64,000 nt of DNA from contig NZ_JAPDFL010000001.1 of NCBI RefSeq assembly GCF_025949695.1, positions 1,594,001 through 1,658,000 of the forward strand, in the 5' to 3' direction. Positions within the stretch are counted from its first letter, which is position 1. Every line of letters starts with the position of its first letter. Origin of the DNA: Pararhodobacter zhoushanensis. Its GTDB lineage: Bacteria; Pseudomonadota; Alphaproteobacteria; Rhodobacterales; Rhodobacteraceae. The notes beneath the pieces are model-generated. The model had not been told where the DNA came from. It worked only from the letters and a program-made list of their open reading frames with translations, and searched no databases. Positions 50,529-64,000 of this stretch are shown here, piece after piece. The translations under genes were made by a program, and so were the position numbers.

Positions 50529-51232
50529 GGATAGACCACCTGTTCGCGCGTCAGGACTTCTTCCTGCGCGGGGTTGGGAACGGCGACCACGGCATTCACA
50601 AAGATGCCGGGGGTGATGACGTGCTCGGGGTTGATCTGGCCCAAAGGCACGATGCGGCTGGCCTGCACGATGGTCTGCGCGGCGGCCATCGCCATCAGGG
50701 GCGCGAAATTGCGCGCAGCCATGCGGTAGGTGAGGTTGCCGTGGGGGTCGGCGTCCTCGGCCTTGATCAGCGCGATGTCGGCTTTCAGCCAGCGCTCTTG
50801 CACATACATCCGCCCGTCGAAGTCGTGCTGGGGTTTGCCCTTGGCCAGATCGGTGCCATAGCCGGTGGGGGTGTAGAAGGCAGGAATGCCCGCACCCCCG
50901 GCGCGGATGCGTTCGGCCAGCGTGCCTTGCGGGACCAGTTCCAGCTCGATCTGACCGGCGAGATAGGCTTCGTTGAACACCTCGGCATTGGCCGAGCGGG
51001 GGAACGAGCAGATCATCTTGCGCACGCGGCCCTGTTCGATCAGGGCGGCCAGCCCGGCGTGGCCGGTGCCGGCGTTGTTGTTGATCACCGTGAGGTCGCG
51101 CGCGCCGTGGTCGATCAGCGCATGGATCAGCTCGATGGGTGAGCCAGCGCCGCCGAAGCCGCCGATCATCACCGTCATGCCATCGCGGATATCCGCCACG
51201 GCGGCGGCGAGCGAGTCGCGTGTCTTGTCCAT
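50525..51232 (-). CDS. pcaI: 3-oxoadipate CoA-transferase subunit A
   Basis: The 235-residue A chain: DGMTVMIGGFGGAGSPIELI near the start, INNNAGTGHAGLAALIEQGRVRKMICSFPRS, and the LVPQGTLAERIRAGGAGIPAFYTPTG segment typical of subunit A. The ATG at 51232 is chosen because GAGG (minus strand) is just upstream and earlier in-frame ATGs would run into the pcaR promoter. First gene of the pcaIJF unit, divergent from the IclR-type regulator. Confidence 0.92.
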   Translation of the reverse strand: MDKTRDSLAAAVADIRDGMTVMIGGFGGAGSPIELIHALIDHGARDLTVINNNAGTGHAGLAALIEQGRVRKMICSFPRSANAEVFNEAYLAGQIELELVPQGTLAERIRAGGAGIPAFYTPTGYGTDLAKGKPQHDFDGRMYVQERWLKADIALIKAEDADPHGNLTYRMAARNFAPLMAMAAAQTIVQASRIVPLGQINPEHVITPGIFVNAVVAVPNPAQEEVLTREQVVYP

Positions 51233-51294: not shown

Positions 51295-51346
51295 TTCGGA
51301 TAGTGAACTTTGTTCGGATTATGAAGGTTAATGTTCGCATGGCGAT
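51295..51346. promoter_or_regulatory. Repeated IclR-type operator between pcaI and the regulator
   Basis: TTCGGATAGTGAA (51295-51307) and TTCGGATTATGAA (51313-51325) are near-identical 13-mers 18 bases apart; a weaker third copy, TTCGCATGGCGA, starts at 51334 and overlaps the regulator start. Spacing near two helical turns suits cooperative binding by an IclR-type protein such as PcaR/PcaU. Confidence 0.6.
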
Positions 51347-52100
51347 CAAATCCACCGATTTCATCGGCTCGCTGGCCAAGGGGTTGGCGGTGCTGGAGGG
51401 GTTCGGCGCGCAGGGGGCGCGGTTGTCAGTGTCGCAAGCCGCCGAGGCGGCGGGGCTGGACCGCGCCGGGGCGCGCCGCTGTCTGCTGACGCTGGCCGAG
51501 CTGGGCTACCTGCAACATGACGGCAAGTTCTTTACCCTGACGCCCAAGGTCTTGCGGTTGGGGATCGGGGCTTTGGCGGCGATGCCCTTGGCGCAGGTGG
51601 TGCAGCCGTGGCTGGAACAACTGTCGGAACGGATCGGCGAAAGCGTTTCGGTCAGCGTGCTGGACGAGACCGAGATCGTTTATGTCGCGCGGGCGGCGCA
51701 ACGCCGGGTGATGTCGATCGGGCTGATGCCCGGCTCGCGCCTGCCGGCGCATTGCACGTCGATGGGGCGGGTGCTGCTGGCGGCGCTGCCCGAGGGGCAG
51801 GCGTGGGGGCTGCTTGAACGCTCGGATCTGGCACCGAGGACGGTCTATAGCGTGACGGATCTTGAGGCGCTGAAGGCGCTGCTGGTGCAGGTGCGCGGGC
51901 AGGGTTTCGCGCTGGTGGATCAGGAGGTCGAGATCGGCCTGCGCAGTTTGGCGGTGCCGCTGCGCAACGGGCACGGAACGGTGGTGGCGGCGCTGAATGT
52001 CGGCGTGGCGGCGGCGCAGCGCAGCGCGGCTGAGCTGGTGGAGCAGGTGCTGCCGCAGCTGAAGGCGGTGCAGGACGGCGTCGCGCGGGTGTTGTTCTAG
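51339..52100 (+). CDS. pcaR: IclR-family regulator, PcaR-like
   Basis: A 253-residue regulator with an N-terminal winged helix (SLAKGLAVLEGFG, then LSVSQAAEAAGLDRAGARRCLLTLAELGYL) and an IclR effector domain (SVSVSVLDETEIVYVARA, GSRLPAHCTSMGRVLLAALP, LVDQEVEIGLRSLAVPL). YVARAA and LVDQEVE are typical of the PcaR/PcaU/PobR subgroup that responds to beta-ketoadipate or protocatechuate. Divergent from pcaIJF. In-frame ATGs also occur at 51303 and 51321; 51339 is preferred by homology of the MAIKSTDFI start, without a strong ribosome site. Confidence 0.85.
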   Translation: MAIKSTDFIGSLAKGLAVLEGFGAQGARLSVSQAAEAAGLDRAGARRCLLTLAELGYLQHDGKFFTLTPKVLRLGIGALAAMPLAQVVQPWLEQLSERIGESVSVSVLDETEIVYVARAAQRRVMSIGLMPGSRLPAHCTSMGRVLLAALPEGQAWGLLERSDLAPRTVYSVTDLEALKALLVQVRGQGFALVDQEVEIGLRSLAVPLRNGHGTVVAALNVGVAAAQRSAAELVEQVLPQLKAVQDGVARVLF

Positions 52101-52108
52101 GCCGTGCG

Positions 52109-53029
52109 TCAGACCGGCGCGTTCCAGCGGCCATCAAAGGCATGAGCGCGGAAATGTTCGACCAGCGCGTCGATGAACAGGCGGGTGCGCGCGGGCAGGT
52201 GGACCCGCGAGGGGAAGACCACATTGGTGGTCAGGCGTGGCAGATCCCAGTCGGGCAGCACGCGTACCAGCCGCCCGGCATCGAGATCGGCGTCGATCAC
52301 ATAGATCGGCTGGGACAGGATGCCGATCCCGTCCAGCGCCGCGCGGCGCAGCAGCCGGCCGTCATTGGCGGTGATGCGGCCCTTGACCGGCAGGCGCAGG
52401 GTCTCGGACCCGCGGGTGAAGGACAGGTGCTCCCAGTCATCCGACAAGGTGTAGAGCAGCAGGTCATGCGCGGCCAGATCGGCGGGGGATTGCGGCGTGC
52501 CGTGGGTCTTGAGGTAGTCGGGCGAGGCGGCCAGCACCCGCGGGATCTCGGCCAGTTTGCGGATGGTGACCGAGCTGTCCATCTCGACCCGGCGGATGCG
52601 GATCGCCAGATCGAGGTCGCTGTCGATCACGTCCAGATAGCGGTTCGAGATCTGCAGATCGACGTCGACTTGCGGATAGCGGCGGGTAAAGGCGCGGATC
52701 ACCGGCATCAGGTGGATCTGCGCGAAGGACAGCGAGGCCCCGACGCGCAAAACCCCGCGCGGCTCGACCGAGACAAGGCTGATGCTCTCTTCTGCCTGTG
52801 ACAGCGTGGCGAGGATGTCGCGGGCATGCTCGGCGAAGCGCTCGCCCTCGGGCGTGAGCGACAGATGGCGGGTGGTACGCTGGACCAGCCGCACGCCCAG
52901 CCGGTTTTCCAACCCGCTGAGGTGACGGCTGACGCCCGAGACCGACATGCCCAGCGTATCGGCGGCGCGGGTCAGGCTGCGTTCGTCTGCGACACGCACA
53001 AAAGCAGTCAGTTCCGAGAAGCGGTCCAT
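52109..53029 (-). CDS. LysR-family transcriptional regulator
   Basis: A 306-residue LysR protein of the CrgA/DsdC-like group: MDRFSELTAFVRVADERSLTRAADTLGMSVSGVSRHLSGLENRLGVRLVQRTT-type helix-turn-helix head (Ser-Gly-Val-Ser in the recognition helix), then a periplasmic-binding-like effector domain with ILSQPIYVIDADLDAG-type late segment. GAGG lies before the ATG. It is divergent from the maleylacetate reductase operon and converges on pcaR with 8 bases between. It most likely activates the hydroxyquinol operon; the inducer is unknown. Confidence 0.87.
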   Translation of the reverse strand: MDRFSELTAFVRVADERSLTRAADTLGMSVSGVSRHLSGLENRLGVRLVQRTTRHLSLTPEGERFAEHARDILATLSQAEESISLVSVEPRGVLRVGASLSFAQIHLMPVIRAFTRRYPQVDVDLQISNRYLDVIDSDLDLAIRIRRVEMDSSVTIRKLAEIPRVLAASPDYLKTHGTPQSPADLAAHDLLLYTLSDDWEHLSFTRGSETLRLPVKGRITANDGRLLRRAALDGIGILSQPIYVIDADLDAGRLVRVLPDWDLPRLTTNVVFPSRVHLPARTRLFIDALVEHFRAHAFDGRWNAPV

Positions 53030-53056
53030 TGTTGACCTCAGCGCAAGAAATTTAAG

Positions 53057-53071
53057 GGAATATTCACATAA
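53057..53071. promoter_or_regulatory. Operator-like site in the lysR/maleylacetate reductase gap
   Basis: GGAATATTCACATAA matches the right half and centre of three sites before the iac-type operon (GGTAATaTTCACGTA). It lies 28 bases before the lysR start, in the 180-base divergent promoter region, and could be either a LysR site or a copy of the shared operator. Confidence 0.45.
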
Positions 53072-53209: not shown

Positions 53210-54340
53210 ATGACGCAAGACAACGCCCCCCTTCACGCCACTGGCCCCGCGCCCCTTCCGGGATACGATGGCCGGGGCTTCACCTATGTTGCGCGTCCCG
53301 GACGCGTGGTGTTCGGCACAGGCACGCTGGCGCAACTGCCTGCCGAGGTGGACGCGCTGGGGGCCAGCCGCGCGCTGATCCTGTCAACGCCGCAGCAACG
53401 CGGGCAAGCCGAAGCGGTGGCGCAGTTGCTGGGCGCGCGGGCGGTGGGCATCTTTGACGGCGCGGCCATGCACACGCCGGTCGAGGTGACGCAAACCGCG
53501 CTGGCTGTGCTGGGCGATATCAAGGCGGATGTGCTGGTCGCGATTGGCGGCGGTTCGACGACCGGGCTGGGCAAAGCCTTGGCCCTGCGCACGGATTTGC
53601 CGCAGGTGGTGCTGCCGACGACCTATGCCGGGTCCGAGATGACGCCGATCTTGGGCGAGACCGAGGGCGGCGTGAAGCGCACGCAGAGCAGCGACAGGGT
53701 GCTGCCCGAGGTGGTGATCTATGATGTGGCGCTGACGCTGGGCCTGCCGGTGGCGATGTCGGTGACCAGCGGGCTGAACGCCATCGCCCACGCGGTCGAG
53801 GCGCTCTATGCCCAGAACGCCAATCCGGTGGTCGATCTGATGGCGCTTGAGGCGATCGGCGCGATCAGCGCCGCGCTGCCGGTGATCGTGCGCGAGCCGG
53901 GCAACGGGCAGGCTCGGTCGCAGGCGCTGTATGGTGCGTGGCTGTGCGGCATCTGTCTGGGGGCGGTCGGCATGGCGCTGCATCACAAGCTTTGTCACAC
54001 GCTGGGCGGCAGCTTCGGGCTGCCCCACGCCGAAACCCACACCGTCATCCTGCCGCACGCGCTGGCATATAACGCCCCGGCGATCCCCGGCGTGATGGCG
54101 CGTCTGGCGCGGGTGCTGGGGCCGGACCCGGCGCGGGCGCTGTTCACGCTGGCGGCTGAAGGGGGTGTGCCGACCTCGCTTGCGGCGCTGGGCATGCCCG
54201 GGGACGGGCTGGACCGCGCCACCGCGCTGGCGCTGGCCAATCCCTATTGGAACCCGCGCGCGCTGGAGGCGGCCCCCTTGCGGGCGTTGCTGGCCCGCGC
54301 GCAGGCGGGCGCACCGCCGATGCTGGAGGAGAGAGCATGA
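53210..54340 (+). CDS. Maleylacetate reductase
   Basis: A 376-residue member of the iron-alcohol-dehydrogenase fold that reduces maleylacetate to 3-oxoadipate with NADH. It has RPGRVVFGTGTLAQLPAEV, the NAD loop AIGGGSTTGLGKALAL, LPTTYAGSEMTPILGETEGG (family hallmark), and LHHKLCHTLGGSFGLPHAETH, where histidines line the active site. ATG 53210 is taken since the conserved region follows; an ATG at 53168 is also in frame and no good ribosome site marks either. Overlaps the dioxygenase gene by four bases; together they process hydroxyquinol. Confidence 0.9.
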   Translation: MTQDNAPLHATGPAPLPGYDGRGFTYVARPGRVVFGTGTLAQLPAEVDALGASRALILSTPQQRGQAEAVAQLLGARAVGIFDGAAMHTPVEVTQTALAVLGDIKADVLVAIGGGSTTGLGKALALRTDLPQVVLPTTYAGSEMTPILGETEGGVKRTQSSDRVLPEVVIYDVALTLGLPVAMSVTSGLNAIAHAVEALYAQNANPVVDLMALEAIGAISAALPVIVREPGNGQARSQALYGAWLCGICLGAVGMALHHKLCHTLGGSFGLPHAETHTVILPHALAYNAPAIPGVMARLARVLGPDPARALFTLAAEGGVPTSLAALGMPGDGLDRATALALANPYWNPRALEAAPLRALLARAQAGAPPMLEERA

Positions 54341-55176
54341 GCGCGTATTTGACCGAAGAAACCTCGACCCAGACCGTCAACGCCCGGATGGACACCAGCG
54401 CGGACCCGCGGCTGCGCCGGGTGATGGGGGCACTGGTCGAACACCTGCACGCCTTCATCAAGGACGTCGAGCTGACCGAAGAGGAATGGGGCGTCGCCAT
54501 CGATTTCCTCACCAAGACCGGCCAGATCTGCGGCGACACGCGGCAGGAATTCGTGCTGTTGTCGGACGTGCTGGGCGTGTCGATGCTGGTCGACGCGATC
54601 AACCACCGCTTCGAGCAGGGCGCGACGCCAACCACGGTTTTCGGCCCGTTCCACGTCGAGGGCGCGCCTGAGCGGGCGATGGGCGCGTGTATCAGCGCCG
54701 ATGGCAAGGGCGAGATTTGTCTGTTCGAGGGGCGGGTGACCGATCTGGACGGCAACCCGGTCGAAGGCGCCTGTCTGGATGTGTGGTCCGACAATGCCGA
54801 CGGGTTCTATGACGTGCAGCAGCCCGGCATCCAGCCGCAATGGAACAACCGCGGGATTTTCCGCACCGGGCCGGACGGGCGCTATGCGTTTCGCGGCATC
54901 CGTCCGATCTCGTACCCGATCCCCGATGACGGGCCGGTCGGCAAGATGCTGGCGGCGCTGGGGCGGCATCCGTGGCGGCCTGCGCATATGCATTTTCTGG
55001 TCTCGGCCCCGGGCTTTCGCCGGGTGATCACCCACACCTTCGTGGCGGGCGATCCCTATCTGACCTCGGACGCCGTGTTCGGCGTCAAGGATGCTCTGAT
55101 CGTCGATTTCGAGCGGGTCGAGACCGCGTCCGAGATCTGGCGCGCGCCGTTCGATTTCATTTTGCAGCGCGCCTGA
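54337..55176 (+). CDS. Intradiol ring-cleavage dioxygenase, hydroxyquinol 1,2-dioxygenase type
   Basis: A 279-residue non-heme iron(III) enzyme. The four iron ligands are visible: Tyr158 (GFYDVQ), Tyr193 (SYPIPDDGPVG), His217 and His219 (RPAHMHF), closely matching Tyr164/Tyr197/His221/His223 of the Nocardioides hydroxyquinol enzyme (from memory). The N-terminal helical dimer domain is present, so it is the catechol/hydroxyquinol group and not protocatechuate 3,4-dioxygenase. SDAVFGVKDALIV and the coupled maleylacetate reductase gene point to hydroxyquinol; activity on catechol is possible. The ATG overlaps the previous stop (ATGA). Confidence 0.88.
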   Translation: MSAYLTEETSTQTVNARMDTSADPRLRRVMGALVEHLHAFIKDVELTEEEWGVAIDFLTKTGQICGDTRQEFVLLSDVLGVSMLVDAINHRFEQGATPTTVFGPFHVEGAPERAMGACISADGKGEICLFEGRVTDLDGNPVEGACLDVWSDNADGFYDVQQPGIQPQWNNRGIFRTGPDGRYAFRGIRPISYPIPDDGPVGKMLAALGRHPWRPAHMHFLVSAPGFRRVITHTFVAGDPYLTSDAVFGVKDALIVDFERVETASEIWRAPFDFILQRA

Positions 55177-55217
55177 GCGCTGCGGTTTCCCATCCCTCTG
55201 TACAGAAAGACAGCGAC

Positions 55218-56726
55218 ATGAAGATCAGCCCCCCTGACGCCCTCGTTTCGGCTATCGCGCCGGCGGTTGCCGATTTCCTCAAGGCCCCCAAGATGCTGAT
55301 CGGACGCGATCAGGTCGCGGCGGCCAAGGGCGCGACCTATCCGGTCTATAACCCCGCAACCGGGCTGGAGCTGGCGCAGGTGCCCGCCGGCACGGCCGAG
55401 GATGTGGATCTGGCCGTGCGCGCGGCGCAGGCGGCATTCACCGGGCCGTGGTCGCAGATGCTGCCGGTCACGCGGCAGAACCTGATGTTGAAACTGGCGC
55501 AGCTGATCGAGGATAACGGCGAGGAACTGGCGCAGCTCGAGACGCTGAACAACGGCAAATCGATCATGCTGTCGCGTCTGGTCGAGGTGCAATCCTCGGC
55601 CGAATACATCCGCTACATGGCGGGCTGGGCGACCAAGATCCAAGGGTCGACGCTGGATGTGTCCATCGCGATCCCGCCGGGCATGCAGTATCAGGCCTAT
55701 ACCCGCAAAGAGGCGGTCGGCGTGGTGGCGGCGATCACGCCGTGGAACTTCCCGCTGAACATGGCGGTGTGGAAGATCGCGCCCGCGCTGGCGGCGGGGT
55801 GCACGGTGGTGCTGAAACCGGCGGAGGAGACGCCGCTGACCTCGATGCGTCTGGCGCAGCTGTGTCTTGAGGCCGGGTTCCCCGAGGGCGTGGTCAACGT
55901 GATCACCGGCATGGGCGAGGATGCGGGCGCGCCGCTGGTGGCGCATCCGGGCATCGCGAAGATCACCTTCACCGGCTCGACCGAGACCGGCAAGCTGATC
56001 GGCGTTCAGGCGATGAAGGACATGAAGCGCGTCACGCTGGAGCTGGGCGGCAAGGCCCCGATGGTGATGTTCGACGATATGGATCTGGACCTGCTGGGGG
56101 CGGCGGCGGGGATCGGCGCGTTCTTCAACTCGGGCCAGACCTGCTGCGCCGGGACGCGGATCTATGCGCAAAAGGGCATCTACGAGAAGGCGCTCGAGGT
56201 GATCGCCAATGTCACCCGCAGCCTGCCGATCGGCCCCGGCCTGAACCCCGGCAACCAGATCAACCCGGTGGTCTCGGCCCGGCATCAGGCGCATGTCAAA
56301 GCCTGCATCGCGCGCGGCATCGAGCAGGGGGCGAAGCCTGTCATCGGTGGCAGCGCGCCCGAGGCCGGCTTCTACGTCGCACCCGAGCTGTTCACCGATG
56401 TGCGTCAGGATATGGGTCTGATGCAGGAAGAGATTTTCGGCCCCGTCGTCACCATGACGCCCTTTGACGACCCCGAGGACGCGATCCGCATGGCCAATGA
56501 CACGCGCTATGGTCTGGGCGCGTCGATCTGGACCAGCGATCTGAACAAGATGATGCGCTATGTGCCGCGCATTCAGGCCGGGACGGTCTGGGTCAACAGC
56601 CACAATATTCCCGACCAGAACATGCCGTTTGGGGGCGTCAAGCAATCGGGCATCGGGCGCGAGCACGGGGCGGGGGCGCTGGACAACTACCTCGAAACCA
56701 AGTCGGTCTGCATCGCATACCGTTGA
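55218..56726 (+). CDS. NAD(P)-dependent aldehyde dehydrogenase
   Basis: A 502-residue ALDH-superfamily enzyme: ITPWNFPLNMAVWKIAPALAAGCTVVLKP (cofactor and Asn-oxyanion region), FTGSTETGK, the general base Glu in LELGGKAP, catalytic Cys309 in SGQTCCAG, and EEIFGPV. The class resembles phenylacetaldehyde/betaine-aldehyde-type dehydrogenases. It is the third gene of the maleylacetate reductase operon, 41 bases on, and is followed by a strong terminator. An arylacetaldehyde (for example indole-3-acetaldehyde to indole-3-acetate) would fit the iac-type cluster next door, but that is inference. Confidence 0.85.
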   Translation: MKISPPDALVSAIAPAVADFLKAPKMLIGRDQVAAAKGATYPVYNPATGLELAQVPAGTAEDVDLAVRAAQAAFTGPWSQMLPVTRQNLMLKLAQLIEDNGEELAQLETLNNGKSIMLSRLVEVQSSAEYIRYMAGWATKIQGSTLDVSIAIPPGMQYQAYTRKEAVGVVAAITPWNFPLNMAVWKIAPALAAGCTVVLKPAEETPLTSMRLAQLCLEAGFPEGVVNVITGMGEDAGAPLVAHPGIAKITFTGSTETGKLIGVQAMKDMKRVTLELGGKAPMVMFDDMDLDLLGAAAGIGAFFNSGQTCCAGTRIYAQKGIYEKALEVIANVTRSLPIGPGLNPGNQINPVVSARHQAHVKACIARGIEQGAKPVIGGSAPEAGFYVAPELFTDVRQDMGLMQEEIFGPVVTMTPFDDPEDAIRMANDTRYGLGASIWTSDLNKMMRYVPRIQAGTVWVNSHNIPDQNMPFGGVKQSGIGREHGAGALDNYLETKSVCIAYR

Positions 56727-56730
56727 CAAC

Positions 56731-56760
56731 AAAAGGGGCGGCCTGCGGGCCGCCCCTTTT
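56731..56760. terminator. Bidirectional terminator after the aldehyde dehydrogenase gene
   Basis: AAAAGGGGCGGCC (56731-56743) pairs perfectly with GGCCGCCCCTTTT (56748-56760), loop TGCG; A- and T-runs on the two sides let it stop both the dehydrogenase operon and the convergent NTF2-like gene. Confidence 0.93.
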
Positions 56761-56778
56761 GCTGCGTGTCGTGTGACC

Positions 56779-57345
56779 TCAGGGTTTCATCAGCATCGAT
56801 TTGGACGGGTAGTCCGACGCCCAGGTCGCGGGCAGGGGGGCGACGAAGACGTTCTCGGTCCGGGTCCGGGTGATGCGCCACTGGCCGTCGGCCTCTTTGC
56901 GGAACCCGTTGAACAGCCGCGACGAGCGCAGCAGCGCCTTGCCGTCGGAAAAGAGCCAGGGCTGCATATGGACCCATTGGCCATCCGCCGTGACGCCATC
57001 GGCGTTCACGTAGATCTGCTCGGACGTCAGGTAGTGACAGTTCAGGATCAGCGCCGGGTCTTGCTTGCCGCCCCAGAAACCCTCGAAGTGCTTGCGGATC
57101 GCGGGCGCTCCGACGGCGCGGCCAAACTGGTTGTCGTAGTATTCGCCCACGCCTTCCCAGACGGCGTCTTCGGTATAAAGCGCCATGATCAGGTCGATGC
57201 GCTCGGCATCGTCGGCGACGCCGAATTCCGGCATCGGCGTGTCGCACAGAAACATGTAGCGGGCTTGAATGCGGCGGATCTCGGCCTCGGCTTCGAGGAT
57301 CTCGATGCGGCGGGTGAGGGCGGCGAGTTGGGTGTCTTGGGTCAT
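56779..57345 (-). CDS. NTF2/SnoaL-like protein
   Basis: A 188-residue cone-fold protein. After an N-terminal coiled helix (LAALTRRIEILEAEAEIRRIQARYMFLCDT) come the typical SnoaL elements: IDLIMALYTEDAVWEGVG, GAPAIRKHFEGFWGG, HYLTSEQIYVNADGVTADG and a GQWRITRTRTENVFVAP end. No clear catalytic pair can be assigned. GGAGGTCCC precedes the ATG. It is divergent from the iac-type operon and shares its control region; iac clusters elsewhere include a small accessory gene iacI, and this could fill that place, but identity is not shown. Confidence 0.75.
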   Translation of the reverse strand: MTQDTQLAALTRRIEILEAEAEIRRIQARYMFLCDTPMPEFGVADDAERIDLIMALYTEDAVWEGVGEYYDNQFGRAVGAPAIRKHFEGFWGGKQDPALILNCHYLTSEQIYVNADGVTADGQWVHMQPWLFSDGKALLRSSRLFNGFRKEADGQWRITRTRTENVFVAPLPATWASDYPSKSMLMKP

Positions 57346-57421
57346 GGGACCTCCTGAGCATCGGCCATCGGGGGCCGGGGTACGATGCGGGAACGGTAAA
57401 GACACTGGGCTTCGGGTCAAG

Positions 57422-57440
57422 CGGTAATATTCACGTAATT
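57422..57440. promoter_or_regulatory. Operator-like site A before the iac-type operon
   Basis: CGGTAATATTCACGTAATT. The core GGTAATATTCAC is a near-palindrome centred on AATATT (its reverse complement is GTGAATATTACC). It lies 77 bases before the NTF2-like gene start. The same 12-mer, with one change or two, recurs at 57488 and 57653. Confidence 0.65.
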
Positions 57441-57482
57441 CCGATCGTACCGCCGCAAAACAGTCTTGCGAATTTCGCAAAA

Positions 57483-57506
57483 GATAACGGTAATATTCAT
57501 GTTATC
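57483..57506. promoter_or_regulatory. Operator-like site B before the iac-type operon
   Basis: The second copy of the core reads CGGTAATATTCATG (57488-57501) and is framed by a perfect GATAAC/GTTATC inverted repeat (57483-57488 and 57501-57506), which gives a 24-base dyad, the size of a TetR- or GntR-type operator. It lies about midway in the 354-base gap between the divergent genes; the stretch between 57507 and 57650 holds no gene that can be supported. Confidence 0.65.
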
Positions 57507-57652
57507 GTTACACGGATGAGCGCCCGGCGACAGGACGCTCCCTGGCTGGTCCGCCACAGGCGACCGGCCCGCGATGCTGCGCGCGCATCTGTGTAAGGCA
57601 CTGTAAAAACTGCAGATCACGCGAAATTTGTGCTTGATCGCTTTTCGTTTTA

Positions 57653-57671
57653 CGGTAATTTTCACGTAGTA
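57653..57671. promoter_or_regulatory. Operator-like site C before the iac-type operon
   Basis: CGGTAATTTTCACGTAGTA, 29 bases before the amidase start, framed by TTTAC and GTAGTAAA. With one base changed in the core it matches site A closely. Its position, overlapping the probable start of transcription, fits repression. Confidence 0.65.
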
Positions 57672-57699
57672 AATCACGCAATGAAAAGCCGACTCACCC

Positions 57700-58863
57700 A
57701 TGTCCGTCCCTCCGACTGTTGCAAAACACGCCCTTGTCGCCCCGCTGGATCTGGGCGGTGACGGCCTGCGCGTGGTGGTCAAAGATTGCATTGATATTGC
57801 CGGTTACGCGACGCGCTGCGGCTCTCGCGCCTTTGACGACGCAGTGCCTGCGGACCGTCATGCCGAGGTGGTGCAGGCGCTGCTGGACGCCGGGTGCCGG
57901 ATCACCGGCAAGACCAACATGCACGAGCTGGCATACGGCATGACCGGGGTGAACGAGGCTTACGGCACGCCGGTCAACCCGCGCTGGCCGGACCGGATTC
58001 CGGGTGGCTCGTCCTCGGGCTCGGCGGTGGCGGTGGCGGCGGGGATCTGCGATTTCGGCGTTGGCACCGATACCGGCGGTTCGGTGCGCCAACCGGCGAT
58101 CTGTTGCGGCGTCTACGGTATCAAGCCGACCTATGGGCGGATCTCGCGCAAGGGGCTCAGCCCGGCGGCATCGTCGCTGGATTGCGTCGGCGCTTTCGCC
58201 CGCGACATGGACATGCTGATCGCCGCGATGCAGGCGATGGACCCAAGCTTTGCGCCCGTCACCCTGACCACCGCACCGCGTCTGGCGCGCATCAAGGCCG
58301 AGCTGGACGACGAGGTCGGTCAAGCGCTGGTCTATGCCCTGATGGAGGGCGCTCCCGAGGTCGACTACGTGACGCTGCCCTCGCTGGAGGCGGCGTTTGC
58401 GGCGGGCATGACGGTGATCGGCGCGGAAACCGTCGCGGCCTTCGGGCATCTGCTGGATGAGGGCGCGCCTCTGGGCGCTGACATCCGTGCCCGCCTGACG
58501 GCCAGCCGCGCGATCACCCCCGACCAACTGGCGCAGGCCGAAGCCGTGCGCGCGGCGTTCACCGCCGAGGTCGACGCGGTGCTCGCCACAGCCGAGGCGC
58601 TGATCACCCCGGCGCTGCCGATGGTGCCGCCGACCCTGACCGAGGCGCAAGACCCCAAGACCGTGCTGCCGCTGACGCGCTTTCTGCGCCCGTTCAATCT
58701 GAGCGGCCACCCCGCGATCGTGATCCCCTCGCGCCGCCCGTCCGACGGGCTGCCGGTCGGGCTGCAACTGGTGGGGCGCAAGTATGACGATGCCCGGCTG
58801 TGCGCCATTGCGAAATGGCTGGCCGAAAGCCTTCCGGCCTTCAAGGAAAAGGACGCTGTTTGA
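57700..58863 (+). CDS. Amidase, IacH-like
   Basis: A 387-residue amidase-signature hydrolase with the Ser-cisSer-Lys triad: Lys28 in VVVKDCID, the GGSSSGSAVAVAAG loop with cis-Ser104/105, and nucleophile Ser128 in GTDTGGSVRQP. It is shorter than GatA (about 480), so not a tRNA amidotransferase. In iac clusters (indole-3-acetate degradation) an amidase of this kind, IacH, is a constant member and is thought to open an amide or lactam intermediate. First gene of the operon here; its stop overlaps the next ATG (TGATG). Confidence 0.8.
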   Translation: MSVPPTVAKHALVAPLDLGGDGLRVVVKDCIDIAGYATRCGSRAFDDAVPADRHAEVVQALLDAGCRITGKTNMHELAYGMTGVNEAYGTPVNPRWPDRIPGGSSSGSAVAVAAGICDFGVGTDTGGSVRQPAICCGVYGIKPTYGRISRKGLSPAASSLDCVGAFARDMDMLIAAMQAMDPSFAPVTLTTAPRLARIKAELDDEVGQALVYALMEGAPEVDYVTLPSLEAAFAAGMTVIGAETVAAFGHLLDEGAPLGADIRARLTASRAITPDQLAQAEAVRAAFTAEVDAVLATAEALITPALPMVPPTLTEAQDPKTVLPLTRFLRPFNLSGHPAIVIPSRRPSDGLPVGLQLVGRKYDDARLCAIAKWLAESLPAFKEKDAV

Positions 58864-60008
58864 TGAGTGTGACAACCGAGCTGAAACCCGATCTGGCGGC
58901 CGAGAAAGCCCGCGTGCTGGCACAGATCCGCGCCCGGCGGGCCGAGTTCACCGCGCTGCGCCATGTGCCGGTCGATATGGTGGCCGAGCTGAAGAAGATC
59001 GGTGTTTACCGCGCCTTTGTGCCCGAGCGGTTTGGCGGCGACGGGCTGACCCCGTCGCAGTTCTGCCGCCTGATCGAGGATATCTCTGCCGCCGACGCCT
59101 CGACCGGCTGGGTGGCCAGCTTCGGGGTTTCGGCGACCTATCTGGCCGCGCTGCCGGTCGATACCTATGCCCAGATCTTCGGCAAGAACCCTGACACGGT
59201 ATTCGCGGGCGCGATGTTCCCGCCGCAACCGGCCGAGATCGTCGACGGCGGGTTCAAGGTGCGGGGGCGCTGGCCGTGGTGCTCGGGCGTGATGGGGGCC
59301 GATATCGTCGGTGCCGGGATCAAGGTGAGCGGCGACAACAGCCCGCTGCCGCGCGTCGCGGTGATGCCGCGCAGCAAGGTGACGGTGGACGAGACCTGGC
59401 GTTCGGTTGGTCTGTCGGCGACCGGCAGCCACGACACGGTGGTCGAAGATGTGGTGGTCGCGCCCGAGTGGACCTTTATCCGCGGTGGCAAGCCGATGAT
59501 GGAGGACCGCGTGTTCCACTATCCGGCGATGGCGCTGGCGGCGCAGGTGCTGGCCGTTGTCGCGCTGGGCACCGCGCGCGAGGCGCTGGACTGGCTGCAC
59601 GGCGACGCGATGCGCCGGGCCTCGATCACCGGTGCCCCCAGCCCGGGCGCGCGCCCCTATGTGCAGGCCGAATACGCCAAGGCCGAGAGTCTGCTGATGG
59701 GCGCGCGGGCGGCATTTTACGACACGATTGACCAGGCCTGGGAGCAGATGCTCACCCAAGGCGCGGTCGACCGCCAGACCCATGTGCGTCTGCGGATGGT
59801 CGCCAGCAAGGCCGCGCATGACGGGGCCGAGGCGGCGCGGCTGGCTTTCGTTCTGGGCGGCTCGGACGCGATGTTCACCGGGCATCCGCTGGGTCGCTGC
59901 ATGATCGACGCGGCCTGCGTCGCCCAGCACGCCTTTATGGGCGAGGGCACCTGGACCGCTGCCGGGGCCACGCTGTTCGAGCAGCCCACCGTGCCCGGCT
60001 TCCCCTGA
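58863..60008 (+). CDS. Acyl-CoA dehydrogenase-fold flavin monooxygenase, IacA-like
   Basis: A 381-residue protein with the acyl-CoA dehydrogenase fold: N-terminal helical part (VDMVAELKKIGVYRAFVPERFGGDGL), beta domain (GFKVRGRWPWCSGVMGADIVGAG) and C-terminal helices (EYAKAESLLMGARAAFYDTIDQAW). WPWCSG and the lack of the dehydrogenase catalytic Glu setting are typical of group D two-component monooxygenases, which use reduced FAD or FMN from a separate reductase. The flavin reductase-like gene at the window end would supply it. IacA performs the first indole-ring oxidation of indole-3-acetate. Confidence 0.8.
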   Translation: MSVTTELKPDLAAEKARVLAQIRARRAEFTALRHVPVDMVAELKKIGVYRAFVPERFGGDGLTPSQFCRLIEDISAADASTGWVASFGVSATYLAALPVDTYAQIFGKNPDTVFAGAMFPPQPAEIVDGGFKVRGRWPWCSGVMGADIVGAGIKVSGDNSPLPRVAVMPRSKVTVDETWRSVGLSATGSHDTVVEDVVVAPEWTFIRGGKPMMEDRVFHYPAMALAAQVLAVVALGTAREALDWLHGDAMRRASITGAPSPGARPYVQAEYAKAESLLMGARAAFYDTIDQAWEQMLTQGAVDRQTHVRLRMVASKAAHDGAEAARLAFVLGGSDAMFTGHPLGRCMIDAACVAQHAFMGEGTWTAAGATLFEQPTVPGFP

Positions 60009-60054
60009 TCCGCCCCCTGCGGGCTGCCCCTGATTTTCCGAAAAGGACCGTTTC

Positions 60055-60426
60055 ATGACTGACCAGACCCCGATCCGCACCTTGTTGTGCATGAACAACC
60101 ACCAAAGCTTTTTCGATCTGCCCTTTGACCAGATCGGCAAGGTCTGGAAGGCAACGCAGGCCTATATGTCGGGTGTCGCCGGTATCGAGGGCGCCACGAT
60201 CATCGGCACCTTCGATGACGACCAGACGATGGTCGGCACCTCGCGCGGGTTTCCCTTCACCTGGTACATGCTGGTCGATTTCCCCAACCGCGACGCGGTC
60301 AAGGCTGCCTGCAACCTGCTGCGCACCATCGAGGTGGGCGACGACGGTCACCGCCTTTGGAAATACATGAGCGTCGAGGCCCGTCTGGGCCGCGCGCTGG
60401 AAATCCCTCAAGCCCACAGGAGCTGA
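60055..60426 (+). CDS. Small conserved protein, IacB-like position
   Basis: A 123-residue soluble protein with no familiar motif: TLLCMNNHQSFFDLPFDQIGKVWKA at the start, VAGIEGATIIGTFDDDQTMVG, and a WYMLVDFPNRDAVKAACNLLR segment. The alternating strands and helices suggest a dimeric alpha-beta barrel (ferredoxin-like) fold. In iac clusters a protein of this size (IacB) follows iacA, and its role is not firmly known; the match is by position and size, not by confirmed homology. The 46 bases before it are untranslated, with GGACC upstream. Confidence 0.6.
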   Translation: MTDQTPIRTLLCMNNHQSFFDLPFDQIGKVWKATQAYMSGVAGIEGATIIGTFDDDQTMVGTSRGFPFTWYMLVDFPNRDAVKAACNLLRTIEVGDDGHRLWKYMSVEARLGRALEIPQAHRS

Positions 60427-60430
60427 ACCC

Positions 60431-61705
60431 ATGTCCCTGGACACGCCGAAATTCAGCGATCTCGACGCGCTTTACAGTGCCGACTCCAAAGTCGCGACCG
60501 CGATGTACGAAGACCCTGACCTGTTCGCCGAAGAGATGGAGCGCATCTTCAAGCGGACCTGGGTCTGGGTCGCGCATGAAAGCGAATTCCCCGACAAGGG
60601 CTCGTTCAAGCTGTCCACTGTCGGGCTTGAGCCGGTCATCGTGGTGCGCGACCGCAAGGACAAGATCCACGTCATGGTCAACCGCTGCCGCCACCGGGCG
60701 GCGACGGTCTGCGAGGTCAAGAAGGGCAAGACCAGCTCGTTCCAGTGCCCGTACCACGGCTGGGGCTATGGTCTGGACGGCAGCCTGCGTGCCTTGCCGT
60801 ACCCTGAGCAATACGGCGACGATTTCGACAAGGCGCAGCATGGTCTGCTCAAGCTGCGGGCCGAAAGCTACAACGGCATGGTGTTCGCGACCTTCAACGA
60901 GGACGCCGAGCCGCTGGTCGATTTCCTTGGCCCGCAGGTGTGCCGCTACATCGACCTGTTCATGAAGCAGGGCGGCGGGTTCCCGATCAAGGTCTTGGGC
61001 GAGCATCAGTTCACCGTGCCGATGAACTGGAAGGTTCAGCTGGAGAACACCACCGACGGCTACCACTTCCCGGTCGTGCACAAGAGCTTCATGCAGACGC
61101 TCGACGGCGAGACGAACGACATGTTCGACTTTCTGGAAAAGGGCAAAGGCTGGGTCGAGGATCTGGGCAACGGCCATTCGGTGATGGTGATGATCCCCGA
61201 GCTGATCGATCTGGATGACAACCTCGACGCGCCGATCCCCGACCGCTTTGCCGAGCTGGCGCAGGAGCTGCGTGACGACGGGTATCCCGAGGATCAGGTC
61301 AAGAAGATCGTGCGCGCTGTTGGCGGGGCCGGGTTCAACCTGAACCTGTTCCCCAACGTGTCCTTCAGTCTGGCCTTCTTCCGCGTGCTGACCCCGGTCA
61401 CCGTCGAGCGCACCGATATCCGCCACATGGCGCTGGGCATGGACGGCGGCCCTGCCGCCGCCAACCGGATGCGTCTGCGGCTGCATGAGCATTTTCAGGG
61501 GCCGATGGGCTTTGGATCGCCCGATGACGCCGAGGTCTGGGAACGCGTGCAGCGCGGGACCAAGGGCGGCGAGGCGCTGCCGATTCTGGTGAACCGCGGT
61601 CTGATCGACGAAGTGCCCGGCGAAGCGGGGCCGAAGGGGCATATCAGCGCCGAAACCGGCATGCGCGCGGCCTACACGATGTGGAAAAGGATGATGGCGC
61701 AATGA
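60431..61705 (+). CDS. Rieske ring-hydroxylating oxygenase alpha subunit, IacC-like
   Basis: A 424-residue catalytic subunit. Rieske [2Fe-2S] ligands Cys86/His88 (NRCRHRA) and Cys106/His109 (CPYHGW); mononuclear iron site Asp209, His212, His217 in NTTDGYHFPVVHKS. The aromatic dioxygenase layout (Rieske head, then a helix-grip catalytic domain) and length are normal. With the beta subunit encoded next and the ferredoxin reductase further on, it forms an oxygenase that dihydroxylates the aromatic ring of the intermediate, as IacC does. Its stop overlaps the beta-subunit ATG. Confidence 0.88.
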   Translation: MSLDTPKFSDLDALYSADSKVATAMYEDPDLFAEEMERIFKRTWVWVAHESEFPDKGSFKLSTVGLEPVIVVRDRKDKIHVMVNRCRHRAATVCEVKKGKTSSFQCPYHGWGYGLDGSLRALPYPEQYGDDFDKAQHGLLKLRAESYNGMVFATFNEDAEPLVDFLGPQVCRYIDLFMKQGGGFPIKVLGEHQFTVPMNWKVQLENTTDGYHFPVVHKSFMQTLDGETNDMFDFLEKGKGWVEDLGNGHSVMVMIPELIDLDDNLDAPIPDRFAELAQELRDDGYPEDQVKKIVRAVGGAGFNLNLFPNVSFSLAFFRVLTPVTVERTDIRHMALGMDGGPAAANRMRLRLHEHFQGPMGFGSPDDAEVWERVQRGTKGGEALPILVNRGLIDEVPGEAGPKGHISAETGMRAAYTMWKRMMAQ

Positions 61706-62199
61706 AGGACGTGACCAACACTCAGGATCTGGCGCTGCTGTCGCAGGTCAGCGCCTTCATCTGGGCCGAGGCCGATATGCTCGACGCCAAGGCCTATGAG
61801 GACTGGCTGGAGCTGTGGACCAGGGATGGGCTCTACATCATGCCGATGGGCGAGGGCGAGGATTACGCCAACAGCCTGAACCTGTGCTACGACAACGACA
61901 AGATGCGGCGCGATCGCATCGGGCGGTTCCGGCAGGGGTTCTCGATCTCGTCCGCGCCTGCGGCGCAGACGGTGCGGGCGATGTCGCGCTTCGTGATCGA
62001 AAAGGTCGAGGGCGATACAGTCACCGTCCGCTGCGCCGAGCAGCTGGTCGAGGACAAGTTCGGCCGCCAGCGCCTGTTCGCCGCCAACACCACCTACACG
62101 CTGATCCGCCAGCCCGAGGGCGGTTTCAGGATCGCGCAGAAGGTGGCGCGGTTGCTCAATTCTGACGGGATGCTGACCTCGCTCAGCTATCTGTTCTGA
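61702..62199 (+). CDS. Ring-hydroxylating oxygenase beta subunit, IacD-like
   Basis: A 165-residue small subunit with the NTF2-type cone fold: FIWAEADMLDAKAYEDWLELWTRDGLYIMP at the start, RIGRFRQGFSISSAPAAQTVRAMSRF in the middle and an ending YTLIRQPEGGFRIAQKVARLLNSDG. These match ring-hydroxylating beta chains, which shape the alpha3beta3 complex. The ATG at 61702 overlaps the alpha-subunit stop as ATGA; its stop in turn gives one base to the SDR start. Confidence 0.88.
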   Translation: MKDVTNTQDLALLSQVSAFIWAEADMLDAKAYEDWLELWTRDGLYIMPMGEGEDYANSLNLCYDNDKMRRDRIGRFRQGFSISSAPAAQTVRAMSRFVIEKVEGDTVTVRCAEQLVEDKFGRQRLFAANTTYTLIRQPEGGFRIAQKVARLLNSDGMLTSLSYLF

Positions 62200-62957
62200 T
62201 GGGGGCCCCTTTGCCAGAGCAAATCCAGACCGCCGTGATCACCGGTGCGGCGAACGGTTTTGGTGCCGTTGCCGCCCGCGCGCTGCACCGCGCGGGCTAC
62301 CGCGTCATCATCACCGACATCGTGCACGAACCGGCGCTGGCACTGGCCAACGCGCTGGATCTGGCGGGCGACACGGCGGTTGCCGCGACGCTGGACGTCA
62401 CAAAGCCTGAGGATTTTCAGGCGGTGCTGGACAAGGTGGTGGATCGCTGGGGCTCGGTCGAGGTGTTGGTCAACAACGCCGCGCGCACGGCGGTCAAGCC
62501 GGTGCTCGACATCGACCCGGCCGATTTCAACGCCATCCTGACCACCAATGCGGGCGGCACCTTTGCCGGCAGCCAGATCTTTGGCCGCTATTTCAAGACA
62601 CGCGGCTATGGGCGGATCGTCAACATGGCCTCGCTGGCCGGACAGAACGGCGGCACCGCGACGGGCGCGCATTATGCCGCCTCGAAAGGCGCGATCCTGA
62701 CGCTGACCAAGGTTTTCGCCCGCGATCTGGCGGCGTTCGGGGTGACCTGCAACGCCATCGCGCCGGGGCCGATGGACACGCCGCTGGTGCGTGAGGTGCT
62801 GGGCGACGGCATCGACAAGGCCATGGCGGCCATTCCGGTCGGCCGGTTGGGCGATCCTGACTTCGTGGCCGAGATGGTGGTGATGCTGGCCAGCCCCAAG
62901 GCGGCGTTCGTCAACGGCGCGTGCTGGGACGTGAACGGCGGGATCTATCCGCGATGA
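62199..62957 (+). CDS. Short-chain dehydrogenase, IacE-like
   Basis: A 252-residue classical SDR: TGAANGFG (15-22), NNAART, SLAGQNGG with the catalytic Ser, YAASK (about 159-163) and APGPMDTPLV. IacE, an SDR of this size, is present in iac clusters and is thought to act on an oxidised indole-acetate intermediate. The start codon shares its A with the beta-subunit stop (TGATG); the stop overlaps the next gene by four bases. Substrate remains inference. Confidence 0.85.
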   Translation: MGAPLPEQIQTAVITGAANGFGAVAARALHRAGYRVIITDIVHEPALALANALDLAGDTAVAATLDVTKPEDFQAVLDKVVDRWGSVEVLVNNAARTAVKPVLDIDPADFNAILTTNAGGTFAGSQIFGRYFKTRGYGRIVNMASLAGQNGGTATGAHYAASKGAILTLTKVFARDLAAFGVTCNAIAPGPMDTPLVREVLGDGIDKAMAAIPVGRLGDPDFVAEMVVMLASPKAAFVNGACWDVNGGIYPR

Positions 62958-63922
62958 GCACTGGCACCCCCCTGACCCTGCGCGTCACCGAGCGGCTGGA
63001 TGACCGCGGCGCAATCGCCCGTATCCGGCTGGAGCCGGTGCAGGGCACCTTGGTGCCGTTCACCGCAGGCGCGCATCTGGACCTGCATCTGGTCGAGAAC
63101 ACGCTCGATCTGTGGCGGCAATATTCGCTGTGCTCGGACCCGGCGGAAACCGGGTTTTACGAGATCGGCGTGCTGAAAGACCCGGTCAGCCGGGGTGGCT
63201 CGGAGGCTGTACACCGGCTGGCGGTCGTCGGGGCCGAGCTGAGCGTCGAAGGTCCGCGCAACCATTTCCCGCTGGCCGAGGACGCCGCGCAATCGGTGCT
63301 GATCGGCGGCGGGATCGGCATCACGCCGATGATCGCCATGGCCAAGCGGCTGCACGCGCTGGGCCGCGATTTCGTGCTGCATTACTGCACGCGCTCTGAG
63401 AGCGTCACGGCGTTTCTGGACACGCTGCGCGCGGCGCCCTTTGCCGACCGGGTTGTGTTCCACTTCGACGATGGCGCGGCAGACCAGAAGCTGGATCTGG
63501 CCCGCGATCTGCCCGCCCCGGCGGCTGACACGCATCTTTACGTATGCGGGCCGCAGGGCTTCATGGACTGGGTGCTGGGCGCGGCCGAGACGGCAGGGCA
63601 CGCCAGCGGGCAGGTGCACCGCGAGTATTTCTCGGCGGATGTGGATCTGACCGGCGAGGGGTTCGAGGTCGAGGCGCGCGCCTCGGGGATCACGGTCAAG
63701 GTTGGCCCCAAGGACACCATCGCCAAGGCGCTGATGGCGGCGGGCGTGAAGCTTGAGGTCAAATGCGAAGAGGGCGTCTGCGGCACCTGTGTCACCGACG
63801 TGCTCGAGGGCGAGATCGACCACCGGGACCAGTTTCTGACCGACGACGAACGCGAAGACGGCGATCTGATTTGCGCCTGCTGTTCGCGCGCCAAGGGTGC
63901 GCGGCTGGTGCTGGACATCTGA
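62954..63922 (+). CDS. Ferredoxin-NAD(P)H reductase with C-terminal [2Fe-2S] domain, IacF-like
   Basis: A 322-residue electron-transfer protein for the Rieske oxygenase. Order: FMN/flavin domain with RQYSLCS, NAD domain with IGGGIGITPMIAMAK and YVCGPQGFM, then a plant-type [2Fe-2S] domain with CEEGVCGTC (three ligands) and a fourth Cys in LICACCSR. This is the phthalate dioxygenase reductase/vanillate demethylase reductase architecture. It overlaps the SDR by four bases. Confidence 0.9.
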   Translation: MSTGTPLTLRVTERLDDRGAIARIRLEPVQGTLVPFTAGAHLDLHLVENTLDLWRQYSLCSDPAETGFYEIGVLKDPVSRGGSEAVHRLAVVGAELSVEGPRNHFPLAEDAAQSVLIGGGIGITPMIAMAKRLHALGRDFVLHYCTRSESVTAFLDTLRAAPFADRVVFHFDDGAADQKLDLARDLPAPAADTHLYVCGPQGFMDWVLGAAETAGHASGQVHREYFSADVDLTGEGFEVEARASGITVKVGPKDTIAKALMAAGVKLEVKCEEGVCGTCVTDVLEGEIDHRDQFLTDDEREDGDLICACCSRAKGARLVLDI

Positions 63923-63936
63923 AAGGGGACAGCGCG

Positions 63937-64000
63937 ATGGAACTGACCGAAACACAACAGGCGTTCCGCGAGGGCATGAGCCGTCTGGGCGCTGCGGTGA
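63937..64000 (+). CDS. Start of a RutF-like flavin reductase gene (IacG-like), cut by the window end
   Basis: The ATG at 63937, with GGGGA upstream, opens a frame encoding MELTETQQAFREGMSRLGAA and one more Val before the window ends. FREGMSRLGAAV is the characteristic start of HpaC/RutF-type flavin reductases, which reduce FMN or FAD for two-component monooxygenases such as the IacA-like protein here. Only 21 residues are visible, so the assignment rests on this motif and position. Confidence 0.6.
   Translation, partial: MELTETQQAFREGMSRLGAAV

Follow-up and report, generated by a model that had tools for sequence, protein, structure and literature searches.

The window analysed here is a stretch of 64,000 nucleotides from the 4.65-Mb genome of Pararhodobacter zhoushanensis (contig NZ_JAPDFL010000001.1, hereafter C1; C1:1594001-1658000). 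Its right-hand end carries an iac operon, the gene set that turns indole-3-acetate into catechol in other bacteria, beside genes of a hydroxyquinol-type lower pathway. Judged by its marker genes, the locus classes as iac-like with what appears to be a different lower pathway, and comparison with related genomes makes the coupling of iac to the hydroxyquinol genes well supported. We consider it very probable that the two gene sets form one catabolic unit and are not chance neighbours. Given one coupled pathway, the substrate would probably be a ring-hydroxylated indole, and we lean cautiously towards the combined proposal of an Iac upper pathway that ends in hydroxyquinol and most likely starts from an indole-3-acetate hydroxylated on the ring, with 5-hydroxyindole-3-acetate as the first choice. 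More tentative, its chances finely balanced, is a full serotonin-type mineralisation route across the Alphaproteobacteria, in which an amine importer, an amine oxidase or transaminase, an aldehyde dehydrogenase, Iac enzymes acting on 5-hydroxyindoleacetate and hydroxyquinol cleavage to 3-oxoadipate would, in most lineages, share one IacR-type operator. An earlier note on this DNA had left open whether a different route ends in hydroxyquinol or two independent units lie side by side. Linkage in rearranged gene orders and a promoter motif found in most arrangements, not all, now favour one unit, and as the final aromatic hydroxyquinol is better supported than catechol; its formation from plain indole-3-acetate is possible but less parsimonious than from a ring-hydroxylated substrate.

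Reading rightwards from 57700 on the forward strand, the operon holds the genes that the earlier note had named, in the order given there. Identities in brackets refer to the iac locus of Klebsiella variicola (L096, on a plasmid typed as conjugative), whose proteins were used in place of those of Pseudomonas putida. An amidase, iacH (57700..58863; 45% to the Klebsiella iac amidase), is followed by the flavin monooxygenase iacA with an acyl-CoA dehydrogenase fold (58863..60008; 43%, and 43-46% with Acinetobacter included), by iacB (60055..60426; 47-49% to the annotated IacB, with several further homologues of that name), by the Rieske oxygenase alpha subunit iacC with its Rieske and iron motifs (60431..61705; 63% to both Klebsiella and Acinetobacter) and by the adjoining beta subunit iacD (61702..62199; 41%, with a family match). 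The short-chain dehydrogenase iacE (62199..62957; 52%, likewise matching its family), the reductase iacF (62954..63922; an open reading frame 47% identical to a PDR/VanB-type reductase) and the flavin reductase iacG (57%) complete the series; only the start of the iacG open reading frame lies inside the window (63937..64000), and the gene ends at C1:1658434.

The same note had seen no iacR next to the operon, an impression that arose because the window edge cuts before a MarR gene. That gene lies next to iacG, 450 bp past the window end on the reverse strand (C1:1658450-1658911, or L004:3450-3911 in the extended map of this genome, L004, which reaches past the window end), and its product is 37% identical to the MarR protein of the Klebsiella iac locus. 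Among solved structures it scores 92 bits with 7kua, 87 with 7l19 and 28 with 7kfo; the search names all three as MarR family only, and we take the first two to be IacR structures and the third to be IadR. The amidase-first order that had seemed unusual also occurs in the type I loci of Klebsiella, Acinetobacter and Thioclava. The true oddity of the locus is a displaced, divergent iacI. A SnoaL_4 gene that the earlier note had passed over (56779..57345, reverse strand) is 33% identical to the Klebsiella gene and 37% to the Thioclava gene that stands between iacB and iacC, where type I loci keep it, and likely represents iacI. All of iacA to iacI and iacR, as known from the indole-3-acetate-to-catechol loci of P. 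putida 1290, Caballeronia glathei and Acinetobacter, are thus recognisable by comparison with the Klebsiella reference set.

Immediately upstream, and as the earlier note had described, lie genes for a maleylacetate reductase (MAR; 53210..54340), a hydroxyquinol 1,2-dioxygenase-type intradiol dioxygenase (HQD; 54337..55176) and an aldehyde dehydrogenase (ALDH; 55200..56726), all on the forward strand, with pcaIJF next. The HQD retains the iron ligands Tyr158, Tyr193, His217 and His219 exactly, and its assignment to the hydroxyquinol type stands: its nearest solved relatives are hydroxyquinol enzymes at 239-437 bits, led by 8r2x (437), 3n9t (PnpC, 285) and 1tmx (278), against at best 145 bits for a solved catechol 1,2-dioxygenase. 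MAR falls into the iron-containing alcohol dehydrogenase family of Pfam and has maleylacetate reductases as its nearest solved relatives (3hl0, 423 bits; 3w5s, 421). The HQD was also considered as a catA product and rejected, scoring 175 bits against a cut-off of 392 that the Rhizobium lemnae enzyme (L046) passes at 456. In the whole genome there is no PF02426 muconolactone isomerase (catC), neither of the two PF04444 dioxygenases reaches the curated catechol 1,2-dioxygenase cut-off, and none of six TIGR03211 matches reaches that for catechol 2,3-dioxygenase. The second PF04444 enzyme is nearest to hydroxyquinol-type structures and far under the catA cut-off, and the extradiol genes with the highest scores reach 205 and 158 bits, short of the catechol 2,3-dioxygenase cut-off of 320; the 158-bit gene lies at C1:1692186-1693061, about 34 kb past the window.

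Two features of the HQD would fit a chlorocatechol-type lower pathway for halogenated auxins, in which HQD and MAR act on catechol-like or chlorinated products. Its best NCBIfam match is chlorocatechol 1,2-dioxygenase, at 177 bits under a cut-off of 359, and its nearest solved relative, 8r2x, is a 6-chlorohydroxyquinol dioxygenase. The best solved chlorocatechol enzyme, however, reaches only 142 bits, and no cycloisomerase or dienelactone hydrolase was recognised among the open reading frames at 47-64 kb, of which ten were scanned. On the structural relatives and the lack of a recognised cycloisomerase we rejected this pathway as very improbable.

We mapped the best 80 of 257 iacB matches together with nine plasmid loci (L numbers below), a sample biased towards relatives because of this choice; the census made across the order, with 390 genomes, is less biased. 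Flanks were extended towards 30 kb per side, as contigs allowed, for 48 loci, with 10 kb scored for L008 and 20 kb for the plasmid loci. We call loci with iacI between iacB and iacC type I, and those with a SnoaL gene of 65-88% identity, usually divergent from iacH, type II. A quick IacC tree has 82 rows, since 8 of the 90 loci have no iacC in the stretch. It groups 56 type II rows in one branch (Shimodaira-Hasegawa-like approximate likelihood ratio support 93) and places Acidocella L075 and two Martelella rows with type II-like SnoaL genes outside it; L075 lay below the first IacC threshold for type II and was reassigned on its divergent SnoaL gene (70%). Three genomes, L019 (G011), L031 (G020) and L073 (G048), hold two iacC copies, one of type II and one 64-66% identical. 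A Longimicrobiales metagenome bin outside the Pseudomonadota (L086) carries iacA-B-I-C-D-E and MarR, which could be a binning error.

Of 54 scored type II loci (L011, L044 and L069, whose contigs end in the region, were set aside), 29 have an HQD gene with 60% identity or more no further than 20 kb from iacC. This linkage spans Rhodobacterales, Hyphomicrobiales, Azospirillum and Acidocella in about seven arrangements. The set LysR-MAR-HQD-ALDH stands upstream of iac in this genome, Rhizobium, Thioclava and Gemmobacter, inverted and upstream in Azospirillum, and inverted and downstream in Agrobacterium tumefaciens (L070). Celeribacter has MAR-HQD downstream and ALDH with a GMC gene far upstream; Phaeobacter, Sagittula, Roseibium and Stappia have aminotransferase-MAR-HQD-Tct-ALDH upstream; Acidocella has ALDH-MAR-HQD downstream; and Pannonibacter has MAR-HQD upstream without ALDH. 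The Martelella stretch L090 holds HQD and no MAR match. An ALDH of at least 65% identity is present in 28 of the 29 HQD-linked maps, Pannonibacter L072 being the exception. In the census, iacC occurs in 11 genomes and an HQD homologue in 63, of which 16 reach at least 63% identity; the three genomes that hold both iacC and such a close HQD have them 6-10 kb apart in every case.

A third element travels with these genes, an amine module that we define as either a tyramine-oxidase-subunit-B-like gene with Rid and FAD oxidase genes or a class III aminotransferase. HQD and amine module occur together in 28 of the 54 loci, HQD alone in 1, the amine module alone in 5 and neither in 20 (Fisher p = 3e-9, ignoring kinship; L092 counts as amine-positive solely on an FAD-oxidase gene at the stretch edge). 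On the IacC tree HQD linkage changes at least nine times and the amine module at least six times. Gemmobacter and Martelella carry annotated 'tyramine oxidase subunit B' (NF004848, 727 bits), Rid hydrolase, FAD oxidoreductase and APC permease genes, and a tyramine-oxidase-B-like gene is found in 8 of the 390 order genomes, three of them with iac, at a distance of 8-16 kb in all three. This genome has a class III aminotransferase past the window end (L004:8033-9406), unknown to the earlier note, as were the TRAP and Tct transporters beside it; its nearest solved relative is an omega-transaminase, and its counterparts in other loci, the near twin L008 aside, are 72-81% identical. The window ALDH has the phenylacetaldehyde dehydrogenase StyD as its best NCBIfam match (685 bits, under a cut-off of 850) and scores 530 bits with the solved phenylacetaldehyde dehydrogenase 4o5h, so that arylacetaldehyde dehydrogenase-like is the fitting name. 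At the level of family assignments, genes for amine-to-aldehyde and aldehyde-to-acid conversion thus appear to belong to the unit. In Martelella AD-3 the stretch between the hydroxyquinol and iac genes (L090:8852-16158) encodes a GMC oxidoreductase and a class II histone-deacetylase-like protein, through which alcohols and N-acetyl amines might enter the route as well.

Further support for one unit comes from an operator-like promoter motif. Training on 51 intergenic regions between SnoaL genes and iacH yielded a 20-bp model with the consensus TTACGGTAATtTTCACGTAA, and scanning 2.93 Mb with it gave 161 sites of at least 16 bits, compared with none in 8.78 Mb of a first-order Markov control. 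While 113 of these sites lie within 0.9 kb of SnoaL/iacH promoters, the motif also occurs in all 24 divergent LysR regions (20 before MAR/HQD genes, 4 before ALDH alone) and upstream of the relocated ALDH in three Celeribacter loci. The other 21 sites include 10 at dctP, 4 at AraC/APC-permease promoters, 2 at ketopantoate-reductase-like genes and 1 at a separate LysR gene (L046). In 20 of the 29 HQD-linked loci the same motif precedes both the iac and the hydroxyquinol unit. When the window was scanned with the 16-bp core ACGGTAATWTTCACGT at up to 3 mismatches, four sites were found where 0.16 were expected, all on the forward strand in two promoter regions. One lies in the LysR/MAR region (53054..53069; 3 mismatches, weak alone) and three between the SnoaL gene and iacH: upstream of the SnoaL gene (57421..57436; 1 mismatch), in the middle of the divergent region (57487..57502; 1 mismatch) and upstream of iacH (57652..57667; no mismatch, and itself among the training sites). 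No uniform pattern emerged when the promoter region was searched for simple inverted repeats. Because the motif also precedes iac operons without a LysR neighbour in the map (e.g., L012 and L024), the MarR protein (IacR) is more likely than LysR to be its binder.

The linkage and the motif also bear on the view of two unrelated neighbouring units, one an iac set that degrades auxin to catechol and the other a hydroxyquinol pathway for another aromatic. In its favour, 13 of the 16 order genomes with a close HQD have no iac, so that the dioxygenase also serves other pathways, and the hydroxyquinol genes have a LysR regulator of their own. Paracoccus litorisediminis (L197) carries an intact aminotransferase-APC-AraC-LysR-Dabb-MAR-HQD-ALDH block on a contig other than that of iac, and this block therefore behaves as a module; the contigs of L197 and L198, genomes with HQD apart from iac, have no site of at least 14 bits. 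Set against this are the short distance in all three order genomes that hold both units, the linkage kept through rearranged orders elsewhere, the motif before both units in most HQD-linked loci and the lack of a muconolactone isomerase in this genome. On linkage and motif we rejected chance neighbours, and two independent units seem improbable.

From the gene identities, the linkage, the motif shared by most arrangements and the missing muconolactone isomerase, all of which the sequence supports, we infer the substrate, the motif binder and each enzymatic step of the following route. An amine such as serotonin would be converted to the aldehyde by the linked class III aminotransferase (in relatives, by the amine-oxidase-like gene set), and the arylacetaldehyde dehydrogenase would yield 5-hydroxyindole-3-acetate. 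IacA and IacE would produce the 3-hydroxy-2-oxindole and IacH would open the lactam, after which IacCDF, aided by IacB and the SnoaL protein, would dioxygenate C3a/C7a and release ammonia and the side chain. HQD would then open hydroxyquinol (benzene-1,2,4-triol) to maleylacetate, MAR would reduce this to 3-oxoadipate, and PcaIJF would deliver succinyl-CoA and acetyl-CoA. IacR probably represses these promoters until the acid is present.

The argument for the substrate turns on the placement of hydroxyls. Published work has IacA and IacE convert indole-3-acetate to 3-hydroxy-2-oxindole-3-acetate and IacCDF, perhaps with IacI, lead on to catechol, the middle of the pathway being left open in these accounts (PMC7225977, PMC9613470, PMC11373566, PMC11630574). 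In our atom mapping the catechol hydroxyls would land on the ring-fusion carbons C3a and C7a. If C5 or C6 is hydroxylated beforehand, ordinary Iac chemistry would therefore give 1,2,4-trihydroxybenzene and no new enzyme would be needed. The acid would come from an amine, which would explain the amine-to-aldehyde and aldehyde-to-acid genes in the unit, and a ring already hydroxylated would explain the lack of a hydroxylase tied to HQD: none was recognised among the inspected gene families, most of them by eye, that are common to at least five loci within 10 kb. Published assays of IacA/IacE covered 11 indoles varied at position 3, and a term search of the main text of that paper found no 5-hydroxy substrate (PMC7225977).

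The lower modules of other genomes fit the same argument. In genome searches that did not include L008 and L036 and counted L075 with the others, PF02426 was found in 19 of 49 type II genomes and 8 of 29 others, and an HQD homologue (E <= 1e-80) in 34 of 49 and 9 of 29. Type II Iac sets are thus accompanied by catC in genomes without an HQD homologue (L011 and L067), by HQD in genomes without catC, or by both genes, and catC and HQD both lie near iac in L046, L057, L059, L060 and L075. The same upper genes could be combined with catechol, hydroxyquinol or both lower modules because a ring-hydroxylated substrate would yield hydroxyquinol by Iac chemistry.

Alternatively, indole-3-acetate or tryptamine could be the substrate, and Iac, SnoaL or an accessory protein could add the third ring hydroxyl in a new chemical variant of the Iac route. 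The Iac gene set, the linkage and the motif also fit this, and two candidates for a distinct chemistry can be named. One is IacC residue 215 (window 61073-61075), which lies by the iron and between the two histidines that bind it. Val stands there in 28 of the 30 loci linked to HQD and in 5 of the 6 that have the amine module only; Ile takes its place in 17 of the 21 remaining type II loci, which have neither HQD nearby nor an amine module, and 19 of 25 loci of type I or other kinds have Ile or Leu, so that the oxygenase may differ. This residue, however, was picked after the fact from nine Iac protein alignments, in which no site tracks the hydroxyquinol module perfectly, and it partly follows phylogeny; the difference is suggestive at best. 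The second candidate is a Dabb protein, which has a weak similarity to antibiotic-biosynthesis monooxygenases and goes with HQD in many loci, but its gene is not in the maps of this genome, Thioclava, Celeribacter, Phaeobacter or Sagittula. A downstream P450 is present only in Sagittula among three annotated hydroxyquinol-linked plasmid maps. Moreover, an HQD homologue at E 1e-80 is missing from 15 of the 49 type II genomes, of which two carry catC, and hydroxyquinol is therefore not an inherent product of type II. We regard a third hydroxyl added by the pathway itself as unlikely, though a more serious contender than the alternatives above, and prefer a substrate that arrives hydroxylated.

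Several observations weigh against coupling to a hydroxylated indole, the spread of the Dabb protein just described being one. Serotonin and tryptamine are told apart only by the hydroxyquinol end product, and the extradiol genes of this genome, although under the cut-off, could still cleave catechol. As to association, several of the 54 loci are near-duplicates, 20 carry neither HQD nor amine module, and a kinship-aware test of HQD against the amine module, with only 4 well-supported independent pairs, was not significant (mean 2.4 the same way, 0 opposite). The Rhizobiaceae loci L041, L048, L056 and L058 keep amine module, ALDH and motif, but MAR/HQD are missing from the surrounding 15 kb or so; catC lies within 20 kb in three of these loci, and all four genomes hold an HQD homologue (54-65% identity) elsewhere. 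Nor is the motif uniform: the aminotransferase-MAR-HQD-Tct loci L009, L010, L018 and L088 show only 10-13-bit matches near the hydroxyquinol genes, in Celeribacter it precedes ALDH but not MAR/HQD, and in Acidocella it was seen only before iac.

The comparison with described systems shows which parts of the locus are shared. Resorcinol (gra), 4-nitrophenol (pnp) and chlorophenol (tft) clusters likewise have HQD and MAR feeding 3-oxoadipate; here, in contrast to them, no phenol hydroxylase was recognised beside HQD and MAR, and Iac enzymes stand there instead. Relative to catechol-type iac loci, iacI is divergent instead of lying between iacB and iacC, and a promoter motif is common to parts of the locus. 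The type I iac of Acinetobacter (L094, on a plasmid of Acinetobacter sp. SH20PTE14, with no iacB annotated) adjoins catC, muconate cycloisomerase and CoA-transferase genes, at the place where the present locus has the hydroxyquinol module, ALDH and amine genes. Compared with Variovorax iad, the window locus has the iacA, iacB and iacI markers, and its MarR protein, far closer to 7kua than to 7kfo (presumably IadR), would not belong to the IadR group taken to mark iad-like loci. The iad locus, which takes indole-3-acetate via isatin to anthranilate, is likewise a MarR-controlled locus with iacC/iacD-type oxygenase genes, and the same account gives iacA and iacB as the marker genes of iac-like loci (PMC9613470). 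Here iacA, iacB, adjacent iacC/iacD, iacI in another position and, beyond the window, an IacR-group MarR are all present.

Marinomonas and marine Rhodobacterales loci such as that of Thioclava GXIMD2076, of type I and with ketopantoate-reductase-like and class II aldolase genes, share iacHABICDEFG, transporters and IacR with the window locus (PMC11373566). Unlike the latter, the Thioclava GXIMD2076 stretch has no HQD, MAR, ALDH or amine module. The Rhodobacterales-type iac loci L011-L015, L024, L026, L037 and L055 (type II) and L033 and L064 (type I) contain a gene resembling that for ketopantoate reductase, in many cases together with a class II aldolase gene; among these eleven genomes a muconolactone isomerase occurs only in L011 and an HQD homologue at E 1e-80 in none.

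The other genes of the region complete the picture. From left to right, pcaF, pcaJ and pcaI (reverse), IclR (forward) and LysR (reverse) precede the hydroxyquinol genes and the iac operon. The pca genes, named by resemblance only, would encode a 3-oxoadipyl-CoA thiolase for the last step of the 3-oxoadipate route (pcaF-like, 48642..49844) and two CoA-transferase subunits (pcaJ-like, 49845..50528; pcaI-like, 50525..51232, start trimmed). Divergent from them is an IclR-type regulator (51303..52100); a gene 58-66% identical to it also adjoins pcaI in Shinella L091 and Thioclava L028. The LysR-type regulator (52109..53029) diverges from the hydroxyquinol genes, and in many related loci a LysR gene 58-67% identical to it lies beside HQD or ALDH genes. 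Past the window end, MarR (reverse) is followed by a TRAP transporter, AraC (reverse), the aminotransferase and a Tct transporter. The TRAP large permease gene near iacG and iacR (L004:5570-6855, C1:1660570-1661855) is apparently split over two frames, through a lesion or an assembly error. In the near twin L008, also P. zhoushanensis, IacB is 98% and the other mapped genes are 96-100% identical, save a fragment of this frame-broken permease. Downstream of the Tct genes lies a group II pyridoxal-dependent decarboxylase-like gene (PF00282, L004:14031-15438), apparently also split over two frames, which was kept out of the evidence because no relative of it is found near iac in the other mapped loci.

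Among the matches listed in open-access literature, by titles and the starts of abstracts and with subscription papers mostly outside this scope, there was no description of an iac-hydroxyquinol or serotonin-hydroxyquinol pathway. For marine bacteria and those associated with plants, iac loci serve as markers of auxin degradation (PMC11630574, PMC11373566). Should a large iac subgroup be coupled to hydroxyquinol and amine genes, this marker would conflate two functions, and loci annotated as auxin degraders would include degraders of serotonin or 5-hydroxyindoles, distinguishable by their lower pathway. The model also gives a testable prediction on the middle of the Iac pathway, namely the placement of the ring hydroxyls. 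An iac operon that appears to be joined to amine-converting genes and a different lower pathway suggests that indoles with a ring hydroxyl, serotonin among them, are consumed here in place of plain auxin, and a route from serotonin to central metabolism would matter for microbe-plant and microbe-animal chemistry.

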